Source of the DNA: Deltaproteobacteria bacterium tcs-42
Lineage (GTDB): Bacteria; Desulfobacterota; Desulfuromonadia; Desulfuromonadales; Geopsychrobacteraceae
DNA: 50,652 bases
Reading direction: 5' to 3'
Assembly: GCA_002049545.1 (NCBI GenBank)
Contig: LLYT01000008.1
Coordinates: 1-50,652, forward strand
Shown here: one piece after another, positions 1,542 through 36,361 of the stretch
Numbering within the stretch: position 1 is the first letter of the stretch
Layout: every line of letters begins with the position of its first letter
Program-made: the position numbers and the translations under genes
Notes under the pieces: model-generated
What the model saw: the letters and a program-made list of their open reading frames with translations, nothing else
What the model was told of the DNA's origin: nothing
The model's database searches: none

Positions 1542-2474
1542 ATGTATAAATATTTATTTGGTCCGGTCCCTTCCAGGCGGCTGGGAATGTCCTTGGGGGT
1601 TGATTTAGTCCCCAAAAAAGTTTGTTCCCTTGATTGTGTTTATTGTGAAGTTGGCGAGACAACAAAGCTAACTCTTGAAAGAAAAGAGTATGTTCCTTAC
1701 GCCAGGATTGTTGCCGAGTTGAACAGTTATTTTGCGAGTAATCCTGATCCTGATTATATCACCTTCTCCGGCTCAGGAGAGCCAACACTGAATAGCCGCA
1801 TCGGTGATGTTATTGCATTTATTAAGCAAGTGAAGCCCGGTATCCCTATTGCGGTTTTAACCAATGGAACATTACTTTACGATATACAGGTCCGCTCAGA
1901 ACTTAAATCAGCTGATCTTGTTCTCCCTTCCCTGGATGCAGCGACCGAGGCGGCCTTTAAAAAAATCAATCGTCCTCCCGAGACCCTGACACTGGACCAA
2001 TATTTACAGGGATTGATAGAATTCAGAAAAGAATTTTCCGGAAAGATATGGCTGGAAATCCTAATTCTTCCCGGTTACAACGATAGTGAAGAAGAGTTAC
2101 AGGAGTTAAGAAAGAACATCCAACAGATGAAGCCCGATGCTGTGCAAATTAACACTTTGGACAGACCCGGAACGGAATCGGACCTTCATGGTGCGACCAA
2201 GGCGGAACTTCGCAGAGTTCTTGAGCTGTTACAGTTGGATAATATGGAAATAATTGCTGCAGCACCACAAAGAAAAAATATAAAATCTTACCGGGGTGAT
2301 GCCGAAACAGCGATTCTCGAGACCATTGCCAGAAGACCTTGTACCCTTGAAGACCTGGTGCAGATTTTGGGGATGCATCGAAGTGAAATTAATAAATACC
2401 TTGATGTTTTAGACTCCGAAGGGAAGATCGAAGCTATTCAACAAACGAGGGGCTTTTTTTATAAAAAAAGTTAG
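1542..2474 (+). CDS. Radical SAM protein with C-terminal winged helix (COG0731-like)
   Basis: The N-terminus carries the radical SAM cluster motif CSLDCVYC (CxxxCxxC, around residues 29-36). A glycine-rich SAM-binding segment, FSGSGEPTLNS, follows near residue 80. The last 60 residues look like a winged helix-turn-helix (TLEDLVQILGMHRSEINKYL). This architecture matches the COG0731 group, often labelled wyosine-synthase-like radical SAM proteins; the substrate in bacteria is not known. A GTG at 1539 precedes the ATG at 1542. AAGGA at 1529-1533 fits the ATG best. The last base of the TAG stop (2474) is the first base of a mobile element inserted here. Without the insertion the same frame would have ended with TAA, so the protein is intact. 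Confidence 0.8.
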   Translation: MYKYLFGPVPSRRLGMSLGVDLVPKKVCSLDCVYCEVGETTKLTLERKEYVPYARIVAELNSYFASNPDPDYITFSGSGEPTLNSRIGDVIAFIKQVKPGIPIAVLTNGTLLYDIQVRSELKSADLVLPSLDAATEAAFKKINRPPETLTLDQYLQGLIEFRKEFSGKIWLEILILPGYNDSEEELQELRKNIQQMKPDAVQINTLDRPGTESDLHGATKAELRRVLELLQLDNMEIIAAAPQRKNIKSYRGDAETAILETIARRPCTLEDLVQILGMHRSEINKYLDVLDSEGKIEAIQQTRGFFYKKS

Positions 2475-2618
2475 TAGCTATTCACCACCGCTACTGATAG
2501 GGGCTTGTGGTACTCATGGAAAGGGCGTCTGTCGCCACGGACGGCGACAGTCGAACGGCCATGGACGGCGCAAAGTGGCCCTTGGAATGGGTGCCTCAAG
2601 GCATTGCTGAACAGTTAC
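2474..2618 (-). mobile_element. MITE-like element, copy 1 (145 bp)
   Basis: One of three near-identical copies; the others are at 14568-14713 and 35784-35927, in the opposite orientation. Its ends form an imperfect inverted repeat: GTAGCTATTCACC at 2474-2486, and the complement of GTAACTGTTCAGC at the right end. It is flanked by a perfect 8-bp direct duplication, AAAAGTTA, at 2466-2473 and 2619-2626. There is no coding capacity. The interior contains a hairpin. GTAA-type ends and an 8-bp duplication are features of the IS66 family, so mobilisation by an IS66-type transposase encoded elsewhere is inferred. Confidence 0.88.
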
Positions 2619-2754
2619 AAAAGTTAAAACTTCAAGGGGGTAACCGGATAGCCTTGATGGTGTCATGGATGTGGTGAGCCGCCAGGCCCGTGAGCGGCTG
2701 CTGGAGTTTCTGGACGAAGAGATCGGTAATGCCTGTGCTGCCTGCTGGATGGGA

Positions 2755-14559: not shown

Positions 14560-14567
14560 ATTTCAAG

Positions 14568-14713
14568 GTAAACTGTTCAGCAATGCCTTGAGGCACCCAT
14601 TCCAAGGGCCACTTTGCGCCGTCCATGGCCGTTCGACTGTCGCCGTCTGTGGCGACAGACGCCCTTTCCATGGGTCCCACAAGCCCCTATCAGTAGTGGT
14701 GGTGAATAGTTAC
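14568..14713 (+). mobile_element. MITE-like element, copy 2 (146 bp)
   Basis: The left end GTAAACTGTTCAGC has one extra A relative to the other copies. The right end GGTGAATAGTTAC is the complement of GTAACTATTCACC. It is flanked by ATTTCAAG (14560-14567) and ATCTCAAG (14714-14721), an 8-bp target duplication with one mismatch. This copy is in the same orientation as copy 3 and opposite to copy 1. It lies directly after the hairpin at 14528-14559. Confidence 0.85.
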
Positions 14714-14823
14714 ATCTCAAGTAGCATCGAAGTTATAAAGCTTGAAGCTTCCCCCCATCAAATGGTATCTTTTCTTGCATTTATTTAACCTGCGATCGGT
14801 TATTGTTTTCCGGAGAAAAGGTT

Positions 14824-34065: not shown

Positions 34066-35178
34066 TCAATCAATCTGGTCAAGAAATGCTTTAAGCAAAG
34101 GAATATACTTTTCCGGTTCAACCAAAAAGGAATCGTGTCCATAGTCGGAGTCGATTAAATGGTAGTCGGCAGTTTTATTCAAGCGTTGCAGTTCGGTGAC
34201 CAGCTCTTCGGCTTGCTGGGGAGGGTAGAGCCAGTCGGAGCTGAATGAAAACCAGAGTGATGGACAGTTGATCCGTTCCAGAGCTTCACTGAGAGAATCG
34301 AAACCCCAGGTCACATCATACAGATCCAGGGCTTTGGCCAGATAGAGGAATGAGTTGGGGTCAAACTGATCGACAAAATTCTTGCCGTTGTAATCGAGAT
34401 AGCGTTCAATTTCAAACTTGCCGAAAAAATCGAATATCCCGTCCCGCACCGAAAAACGCCGTTCAAATTTTAACTGCATCGAGACATCTGATAAAAAAGA
34501 GATATGGCCCACAGCTCGTGCCAGGGCGAGTCCATCAGCAGGGGGGTGTTCGGGCTTGTAATTGCCTTTCTTCCATAGTGGATCATTAAATATCGCTTGT
34601 CGTGCCAGTGAATTCAATGAAATCGCCATGGGGGAAGTGCATCCCGTTCCGGCAATGGGGACGATGGAGCGGACCCTGTCTGGAAAATGGATCGCCCATT
34701 CGATTGCCTGCATCGCCCCCATGGAGCCACCAACATTTGAAAGGAGTGACTTGATGCCAAGATGGTCAAGCAGCAATTTTTGTGCGCGAACCATATCGCG
34801 AACCATCAGAACCGGAAAGCTGAGGCGATAGGGTCGTTGAGTGCGGGGATTAATACTGGTTGGGCCAGTTGAGCCGTGACATGAGCCAATAGTGTTGCTG
34901 CAGATAATGAAATAACGATCGGTATCGAGAACTTTTCCCGGACCGATCATATTGTCCCACCAGCCGGGCTTGCGATCTTCGTCTGAATGACGCCCGGCAG
35001 CATGAGCATTTCCGGTCCAGGCGTGGCTGACCATAATTGCGTTGGAAGCATCCTGGTTCAGTTCGCCGTAAGTTTCATAAGCCAGGGTGAGGGGGCCAAG
35101 CAAGCGACCACTTTCAAGCCGGAGTTCGAGGTCAAAATCTACATATTTGGTCGTCACAATACCGATACTGTTGTCCAA
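34066..35178 (-). CDS. metX: Homoserine O-acetyltransferase
   Basis: A 370-residue alpha/beta-hydrolase that makes O-acetyl-L-homoserine in methionine synthesis. The nucleophile elbow is [12 protein letters not shown], and the C-terminal [14 protein letters not shown] holds the catalytic histidine. [13 protein letters not shown] and [10 protein letters not shown] are typical of the family. The longest open frame would begin at 35208 inside the riboswitch terminator stem. The TTG at 35178 has AGGGGA six bases upstream and leaves the family-like N-terminus ([13 protein letters not shown]). Expression is controlled by the SAM-I riboswitch upstream. Confidence 0.92.
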
Positions 35179-35203
35179 GTCACATCCCCTGTTGTCAGTG
35201 CCA

Positions 35204-35247
35204 ATCAAAAAGGCCCTTTCCCATTTTCAGGAAAGGGCCTTTTTGAT
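35204..35247 (-). terminator. Riboswitch-controlled terminator of metX
   Basis: An 18-bp perfect stem, 35204-35221 with 35230-35247, core AAAAAGGCCCTTTCC, ends on the minus strand in a UUUUU run. It lies 28 bases after the aptamer, ahead of the metX ribosome binding site, so SAM binding would favour termination. Confidence 0.9.
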
Positions 35248-35274: not shown

Positions 35275-35405
35275 GTCCCCATCTGTCCCTGAGTTGATAT
35301 GTCAGCAGGGCAGGAATTGGCACCGACCTTTTCCTTTTTACAACAAGGAATGTCGGTTGCCGTGGCTTCAAAGGGCCTTCTCCCTCCACCACTCTGGATA
35401 AAGAC
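35275..35405 (-). ncRNA. SAM-I riboswitch aptamer
   Basis: The minus strand contains the conserved SAM-I core: GTGGTGGAGGGAGAAGGCCC, then GAAGCCACGGCAACC and later GGTGCCAATTCCTGC. P1 can be drawn as GTCTTTATC (complement of 35397-35405) with GATGGGGAC (complement of 35275-35283), all nine pairs including G-U. P4 is CCCTG/CAGGG. It is followed by the terminator at 35204-35247 and then metX, so it represses methionine synthesis when SAM is plentiful. Confidence 0.95.
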
Positions 35406-35723: not shown

Positions 35724-35783
35724 ATGACTGCCAGAAATTGAAAGAGGTCTGAGAACGTTCGAACTTTTTTAACTTGTTCGGTT

Positions 35784-35927
35784 GTATCTGTTCAGCAATG
35801 CCTTGAGGCACCCATTCCAAGGGCCACTTTGCGCCGTCCATGGCCGTTCGACTGTCGCCGTCCGTGGCGACAGTCGAACGGCCATGGGTACCACAAGCCC
35901 CTATCAGTAGTGGTGGTGAATAGTTAC
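35784..35927 (+). mobile_element. MITE-like element, copy 3 (144 bp)
   Basis: Ends GTATCTGTTCAGC and (complement) GTAACTATTCACC. It is flanked by the perfect 8-bp direct repeat GTTCGGTT at 35776-35783 and 35928-35935. In this copy the interior is a perfect 22-bp inverted repeat (35838-35859 with 35866-35887, loop GTCCGT); copies 1 and 2 have a diverged right arm. The element supplies the stop codon (TAA, complement of 35924-35926) of the Rrf2 regulator gene. Confidence 0.92.
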
Positions 35928-36361
35928 GTTCGGTTTTTTAAAAAATCTAACTTCTCTTTTTCTCTGCGAACCAGATCGGCAATACTGTAGCGTTTCAGGA
36001 CTTCGGCCATTTCACGCTGGGCGTCGTGCCAGACTTCATGAGCCGAACAGTAGCCATCACGGTGGCATGCCGAAGTATCAACAAGGCAGTGGTTTAATTT
36101 CAACTGACCCTCTTCTGCCTGCAAAACGTCGAGCATATTGATTTCACCCGGATCTTTGGCCAGCAGGAAACCACCACCGACGCCACGCTGTGAGCTGACA
36201 ATTCCTGCTTTGATCAGTGGCTGAAGGATTTTTGTTAAAAATGCCGGGGTGACCTCCTGAGTACGGCAGATATCTTTTTTTAACACAATGTCATTCTTGG
36301 GCTGTTGAGCTAAATAAATGACTGTTCTTACCGCGTACTCAGTTGCTCGTGTAATAACCAC
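35924..36361 (-). CDS. Rrf2-family transcriptional regulator
   Basis: A 145-residue winged-helix regulator. It has the Rrf2 N-terminus (ITRATEYAVRTVIYLAQ) and the recognition region AFLTKILQPLIKAGIVSSQRGVGGGF. Three cysteines at about 92-105 (CLVDTSACHRDGYC) are spaced like the Fe-S ligands of IscR/NsrR/RsrR proteins, so redox, NO or Fe-S sensing is likely. The start is GTG at 36361 with AGGAGG six bases upstream. The last codon and stop were altered by mobile element insertion: the original frame would have added one serine before its own TAA. No target gene is adjacent. Confidence 0.88.
   Translation of the reverse strand: MVITRATEYAVRTVIYLAQQPKNDIVLKKDICRTQEVTPAFLTKILQPLIKAGIVSSQRGVGGGFLLAKDPGEINMLDVLQAEEGQLKLNHCLVDTSACHRDGYCSAHEVWHDAQREMAEVLKRYSIADLVRREKEKLDFLKNRT

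Follow-up and report, generated by a model that had tools for sequence, protein, structure and literature searches.

A high-copy MITE family with IS66-type ends and a group II intron apparently homing to its tips in Deltaproteobacteria bacterium tcs-42

Introduction

Group II introns that take a repeated mobile element as their main homing site are known from Sinorhizobium meliloti, where, in the available passages of the published account, RmInt2 homes to both inverted repeats of ISRm17 and RmInt1 is found in ISRm2011-2, with 7 and 10 copies, respectively, in strain GR4 (PMC5894124). Concerning MITEs, the passages available on MITECca01 of Cardinium describe a high-copy bacterial element of ~240 bp with ends of the IS982 family, whose autonomous parent ISCca4 resides in the same genome (PMC9769881), while those on the "MITEtron" of Thiomargarita describe a MITE lodged within a group I intron of a single gene (PMC4853749). 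Within the IS66 family, ISDge4, a member of the ISBst12 group, is presented in the accessible part of its report with ends GTGACTACTCAGCA/GTAACTGCTCAGCA, one transposase ORF and an 8-bp duplication (PMC12898284).

The locus studied here is a repeat of about 145 bp present three times in a 50,652-nucleotide stretch of contig LLYT01000008.1 of Deltaproteobacteria bacterium tcs-42, hereafter the window. It resembles the RmInt1/RmInt2 systems, as far as these are covered in the passages available, in that a repeated mobile element serves as the main homing site of a group II intron, ectopic insertions occur too, and insertion is thought to curb the host element, as we propose here; it differs in that the host is a non-coding MITE, and in the 31 exact 5' ends found for the present intron, whose body is unassembled, against 7 and 10 copies (PMC5894124). 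Like MITECca01 as there described, the window repeat is a high-copy bacterial MITE with the ends of a known IS family, but the family, the length and the presence of a parent in the same genome set MITECca01 apart (PMC9769881). With the MITEtron it shares the association of a MITE with a ribozyme intron, although the nesting is reversed (PMC4853749). The partner elements found in relatives of tcs-42 are like ISDge4 in their near-identical imperfect ends, 8-bp direct repeat and, apparently, one transposase ORF, to judge from the accessible text (PMC12898284), whereas the window repeat has no ORF, measures 145 bp, resembles ISDge4 in its ends alone and has no autonomous copy that we could find in tcs-42. 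The parts of the literature searched, mainly open-access, hold no description of a MITE end occupied by a group II intron, and the passages returned for MITEs together with the IS66 family (PMC3281130) describe no IS66 MITE.

Results

The three copies of the window, of 145, 146 and 144 bp, were read directly together with their ends and flanking duplications (Table 1), and the coordinates, lengths, ends and 8-bp duplications (perfect, 7/8 and perfect) given in the initial annotation were all confirmed; 144-146 bp leave no space for a transposase. They are 97-98% identical across long matching blocks, one arm of the core hairpin differing in copy 3, and copy 2 owes its length to one extra A (GTAAACTG). 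Two of them touch reading frames: the first base of copy 1 and its left duplication make up the TAG stop (window 2472-2474) of ORF 1539-2474, and the TTAC end of copy 3 is the source of the TAA stop (35924-35926) of ORF 35924-36361 on the minus strand. The window also holds a SAM riboswitch (RF00162, 73.8 bits, 35276-35404, minus strand), upstream of a homoserine O-acetyltransferase-like ORF at 34066-35208, a function assigned by eye.

Table 1. Positions of the MITE copies, their parts and related elements. Positions refer to the window, except for L040, L053, L069 and L078, which are loci in relatives.
Feature	Position	Strand	Remarks
Left target duplication, copy 1	2466-2473		8 bp, AAAAGTTA
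MITE copy 1	2474-2618	+	145 bp, ends GTAGCTATTCACC / GTAACTGTTCAGC
Site equivalent to the group II intron site, left end of copy 1	2478-2479	+	inferred; unoccupied; copy reads GTAGC
Inner hairpin B of Y-fold, copy 1	2529-2550	+	CTGTCGCC-ACGGAC-GGCGACAG
Inner hairpin A of Y-fold, copy 1	2557-2569 (limits approximate)	+	loop ATGGAC
Site equivalent to the group II intron site, right end of copy 1	2613-2614	-	inferred; unoccupied
Right target duplication, copy 1	2619-2626		8 bp, AAAAGTTA
Left target duplication, copy 2	14560-14567		ATTTCAAG
MITE copy 2	14568-14713	-	146 bp, orientation opposite to copy 1, extra A near left end
Right target duplication, copy 2	14714-14721		ATCTCAAG, 7/8 match
Left target duplication, copy 3	35776-35783		GTTCGGTT
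MITE copy 3	35784-35927	-	144 bp, orientation opposite to copy 1
Right target duplication, copy 3	35928-35935		GTTCGGTT
Element with other interior, L040	2547-2698		perfect 8-bp duplication
Element with other interior, L069	1330-1513		perfect 8-bp duplication
Element with other interior, L078	1421-1489		duplication with one mismatch
Element with other interior, L053	1501-1634		duplication with two mismatches

Across the 2.55-Mb tcs-42 genome, a draft assembly of 121 contigs, the exact 13-bp end GTAACTRTTCASC occurs 141 times (66 + 75), against 1 occurrence of a reversed-pattern control. As a copy contributes at most two such ends, roughly 70 MITE copies or more are present, an estimate in which overlapping contig ends may count a few copies twice and copies with mutated ends are missed. 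The search with the 145-nt unit that the initial annotation had proposed yielded 134 candidates in tcs-42, and all those scored (40/40) match; across tcs-42 and its relatives the MITE was recovered in 21 of 98 genomes.

Target duplications were read in 35 tcs-42 copies with both ends legible, this set being 47 rows minus 7 that are intron junctions, 4 spurious end pairs and L045, which has one bad end. The duplication is perfect in 26 and has one mismatch in 5 (window copy 2 among them, its extra A allowed for) and two mismatches in 2, whereas the remaining 2 (L022 and L050) have none in register, although that of L050 becomes perfect if its last base is counted as lost. Altogether, 31/35 copies carry a duplication with no more than one mismatch, where simple arithmetic gives a chance expectation of ~0.01 such pairs. 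The repeat shows the features by which MITEs are recognised, being short, multicopy and devoid of a transposase ORF, with terminal inverted repeats and target duplications. A rough placement of 28 copies relative to ORFs put 23 of them between ORFs and 5 inside one; window copy 3 is one of these five and sits at the extreme end of its ORF.

The initial annotation had assigned the ends to the IS66 family and expected a full-length partner in the same genome. A profile search for the IS66 transposase (PF03050) gave 0 matches in the tcs-42 draft genome, so that this expectation was not borne out there; among the 98 genomes searched (97 relatives and tcs-42), 16 have matches, all of them relatives. 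Five of the matches form one group (L099-L102 and L106, in genomes G018, G069, G080 and G087), with open frames of 477-483 aa within elements of 1717-1728 bp, and these are the IS66 transposase elements with the same ends that the annotation had suggested looking for. Both their ends read GTAACTATTCAGC, L099 and L101 each having one base off at one end, so that 13 bp are common to the MITE and the five elements with at most one base different per element. Perfect 8-bp duplications flank L100 (AATAAAAG) and L106 (CTTGTTTT), and a readable 8-bp duplication is absent from L099, L101 and L102 (3/5). Apart from this group, ends could be fixed among the PF03050 matches for three further elements (L084, L086 and L090), which end in GTAAGCG and have 8-bp duplications, with one mismatch in L084. 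The protein of L101 scores above the cut-offs of both NF033517 (transpos_IS66, 290.7 bits) and PF03050 (152.2 bits). An element of ~1.72 kb leaves little space beside a frame of ~1.45 kb, and the partner elements of the relatives are apparently single-ORF and ISBst12-like, the ORFs having been listed for L101 only. Given the matching ends in relatives and in ISDge4, the family call therefore stands.

The likeness between the repeat and these five sampled ISs was confined to the ends, none being seen past the terminal 13-16 bp when the outer 90 bp were compared by eye; hence, the repeat did not arise from any of the five by simple deletion. As possible edges of a full partner, we considered the eleven exact ends in tcs-42 whose sequence differs from that of the MITE at base 32; roughly three in four unrelated ends would satisfy this filter. 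Of the eleven, 8 pair as variant MITEs, and the other three (L043, L044 and L045) have other genes as neighbours, the ORFs listed around them including no transposase. A multicopy partner collapsed in the assembly should leave its ends at contig ends, and none of the 11 fits this, which argues that the partner is gone. The IS66 partner has thus likely been lost from the tcs-42 genome and the repeat looks orphaned, its absence from a draft of 121 contigs being likely rather than proven. A richer and apparently also orphan population was seen in G032, a relative of the same family, whose 2.7-Mb draft has 214 exact ends and no PF03050 match.

Among the 98 genomes, exact ends are present in 53 and the MITE itself (E <= 0.001) in the 21 already mentioned, tcs-42 being counted in both. 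The MITE belongs to a lineage present in three families of the order, of which it forms one branch. We aligned 26 oriented elements of 135-145 bp, from 13 genomes (tcs-42 and 12 others) of seven genera and three families. The set consists of 23 of the 27 loci passing filters on ends, duplication and length, together with one tcs-42 copy, L067 and L071; L040, L227, L229 and L247 passed the filters and were left out. The loci were drawn from about 50 of the listed MITE matches and were hence chosen by their likeness to the tcs-42 MITE. Relatives also carry short elements (69-184 bp) in which ends of this kind flank other interiors (L040, L053, L069 and L078). Since L040 and L069 combine the same ends with other interiors and perfect duplications, the MITE ends seem sufficient for mobility, and the fold described below may serve something else.

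The consensus fold of the 26 aligned elements is a Y, formed by a long outer stem and two inner hairpins. Pairing holds in 93.4% of the cells of this alignment and 21/35 pairs have changes on both sides; sliding the structure lowers the covariation score from 0.349 to 0.032-0.060, and shuffling gives 0.129. The gap is large, even allowing for the advantage that the structure gains from being scored on the alignment that yielded it. The outer stem, a variable region with a mean column conservation of 0.73, holds 14 of the 21 compensatory pairs, and mean conservation reaches 0.86 and 0.90 in the inner hairpins and 0.69 in a spacer. GGA is kept in both inner loops, on one strand, in 25/26 and 26/26 sequences, and ANGGA in 24 and 12 of the 26. 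GGA in hairpin loops is a feature of RNAs that bind CsrA/RsmA; the only Rfam match of copy 1 was to RsmZ, below threshold (18.8 bits against a gathering score of 44).

In several MITE copies at contig ends, GTAAC is missing and its place is taken by one common sequence, which matches domains V-VI of group II introns (RF00029, positions 1-77, 39.4 bits, E 2.7e-5), 0.6 bits below the gathering score of 40. The exact intron 3' end is found 21 times in tcs-42, each within 276 nt of a contig end, and two further contigs carry a 12-nt truncated 3' end, which brings the total to 23; the exact 5' end GGGCGACTCGCAGCCCGTTT is found 31 times, one extra match with 3 mismatches being left uncounted. Group II introns usually start with GTG, and this one starts with GGG (GGGCGAC); a 5' end written as GTAACGTGYG was tried and dropped, since it gave 2 matches, fewer than the 5 of a reversed-pattern control. 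The 177 nt on the 5' side are identical in 30/30 loci, an identity that contig overlap may force, and these first 177 nt of an intron whose body is unassembled contain no exact complement of GTAAC (GTTAC). The only assembled part of the putative intron-encoded protein is a C-terminal tail of 55 aa upstream of domain V, which over residues 1-45 matches (39%) the end of a reverse-transcriptase-like ORF, named by eye, in L206, and has no match in NCBIfam, PDB or plasmids; the reverse transcriptase domain PF00078 gave 0 matches in the tcs-42 assembly.

A scan of a genome collection that may omit tcs-42 and very near genomes returned 0 for the intron 3' end, and viral contigs gave 0 and 0. The last 276 nt of the intron match 5/98 genomes, tcs-42 included, three of them over 29 nt only; the related end in G018 (L152) is, by eye, a remnant behind a terminator-like hairpin, outside any MITE. 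L149 differs from the intron 3' end at 3 positions and is surrounded by genes that resemble, by eye, those of ABC transporters; it was taken as a chance match. No occupied MITE was seen outside tcs-42 among the 98 genomes, searched with the intron 3' stretch only. Two other observations concern contig starts and ends. In L119 (1-205, at the start of G000:C64) a different sequence that looks like the 5' end of a group II intron (GTGCGCCGAGC...) is joined to the loop of MITE hairpin B, and Rfam gave no match for L119 at E 0.1; L157, L158, L159 and L163, at tcs-42 contig ends, belong to another repeat family, with a GTTGAAAAAGTCCC stretch and CAGGCTGTTTTTCAACAGCCTG.

The insertion point in the MITE tips is GTAAC^TRTTC. 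All 23 intron 3' exons begin with TR; 17 consist of MITE sequence from base 6 onwards, 7 at the left end and 10 at the right (a diverged copy, L146, among them), and 6 are other sequence. The 5' exons that were read (30) are GTAAC in 28 cases, GTAAT in one and GTTGC in one. Thirteen 5'/3' contig pairs share the 8-bp duplication of the MITE, 12 perfectly and 1 with one mismatch, where ~0.2 would be expected by chance; an AT-rich pair with one mismatch (L177-L010) was left uncounted, and L178-L148, despite its matching duplication, was rejected for want of a GTTAC end. These 13 pairs establish the layout duplication-GTAAC-intron-TRTTC...MITE...GTTAC-duplication, with the intron inside the MITE and zero bases lost, that is, the clean, site-specific insertion without a target duplication of its own by which group II introns are recognised. 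The MITE remainders of intron-bearing copies measure 74, 115, 139 and 140 bp, several sequence and length variants being represented; as both ends are occupied and the variants are several, the insertions are separate events. For the 3' junctions that lie outside MITEs, reading frames pointed to no convincing 5' partner.

Discussion

Taken together, the data are best explained by a high-copy MITE with IS66-mobilised ends, whose partner is probably absent from this genome and whose interior has a conserved Y-fold, and by a group II intron that retrohomes into either end, a reading to which we give a probability of roughly 85%. In this model, the 13-bp ends would be recognised in trans by a TnpC transposase of the IS66 family (ISBst12-like), which would insert the MITE and thereby produce the 8-bp target duplication; TnpC partners occur in some relatives, and none was found in tcs-42. 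The interior would represent an order-wide lineage with a conserved Y-fold, unrelated to the interiors of the sampled ISs. The multicopy intron would retrohome, presumably through base pairing and reverse splicing, between GTAAC and TRTTC of either end, pointing inward, and by splitting the terminal repeat it should make that MITE copy cease transposing.

Each part of this picture has to be weighed against another origin. The 145-bp unit might be a structured repeat of the ERIC or Correia kind, moved by some other transposase that duplicates 8 bp, its IS66-like ends having arisen by convergence; the failure to find an IS66 transposase in the draft genome agrees with this, as does the agreement with the sampled ISs over only ~13 bp, with no common subterminal sequence seen. 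However, the MITE end recurs, with no more than one difference, in all five IS66 elements of the 477-483 aa group, GTAAGCG ends are present in the three other IS66 elements, and the two elements with unrelated interiors, L040 and L069, share the ends together with perfect 8-bp duplications; in addition, an end of this kind and an 8-bp repeat are documented for ISDge4 in the accessible text (PMC12898284). Convergence is thus quite unlikely. The sequence at the contig ends could in turn belong to another site-specific element, an IS or a different retroelement, that inserts at GTAAC^T, and the missing body, the Rfam score just under its gathering value and a protein tail with no database match leave some room for it; but the match to RF00029 runs the full length of domains V-VI, a reverse-transcriptase-like tail lies directly upstream, and compared with empty MITEs not a base is gained or lost, which makes such an element very unlikely. 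That the intron was multiplied inside transposing MITEs, one intron-bearing copy having been copied many times, would suit the sameness of its known parts at all junctions read, a sign of a recent burst unless contig overlaps force it. Nevertheless, we regard this as highly improbable, because introns occur in left and right ends, in several sequence and length variants of the MITE and at 6 sites with no MITE at all, and because an interrupted end should be a poor substrate for the transposase.

Long inverted repeats can homogenise their arms by an established mechanism, and the compensatory changes in the Y-fold might accordingly reflect templated repair between the arms of a palindrome (strand switching), with no selection on structure. 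This is a serious rival to selection on the fold, and we place it somewhat short of even odds: most of the compensatory pairs do fall in the variable outer stem, yet the arms are imperfect palindromes that retain an internal loop, and the inner hairpins keep their sequences while a spacer varies. On the side of selection, the GGA conserved in the loops and the sub-threshold RsmZ match are the basis for imagining the Y-core as a selected functional nucleic acid that spreads with the MITE, in effect a mobile regulator of CsrA limited by the colonising intron; we consider this unlikely.

For tcs-42, the preferred reading, a trans-mobilised MITE with an intron homing to its tips, means that a small genome harbours some 70 or more copies of a MITE family with IS66-type ends. 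The covariation in the core prompts one to ask whether the folds of old MITE lineages encode anything and, if so, what. A group II intron would be using a high-copy non-coding parasite as its landing pad, by which MITEs would join the IS targets of RmInt1 and RmInt2, and, since both MITE ends are targeted and split by the intron, the family may offer a natural test of introns restraining other mobile elements.
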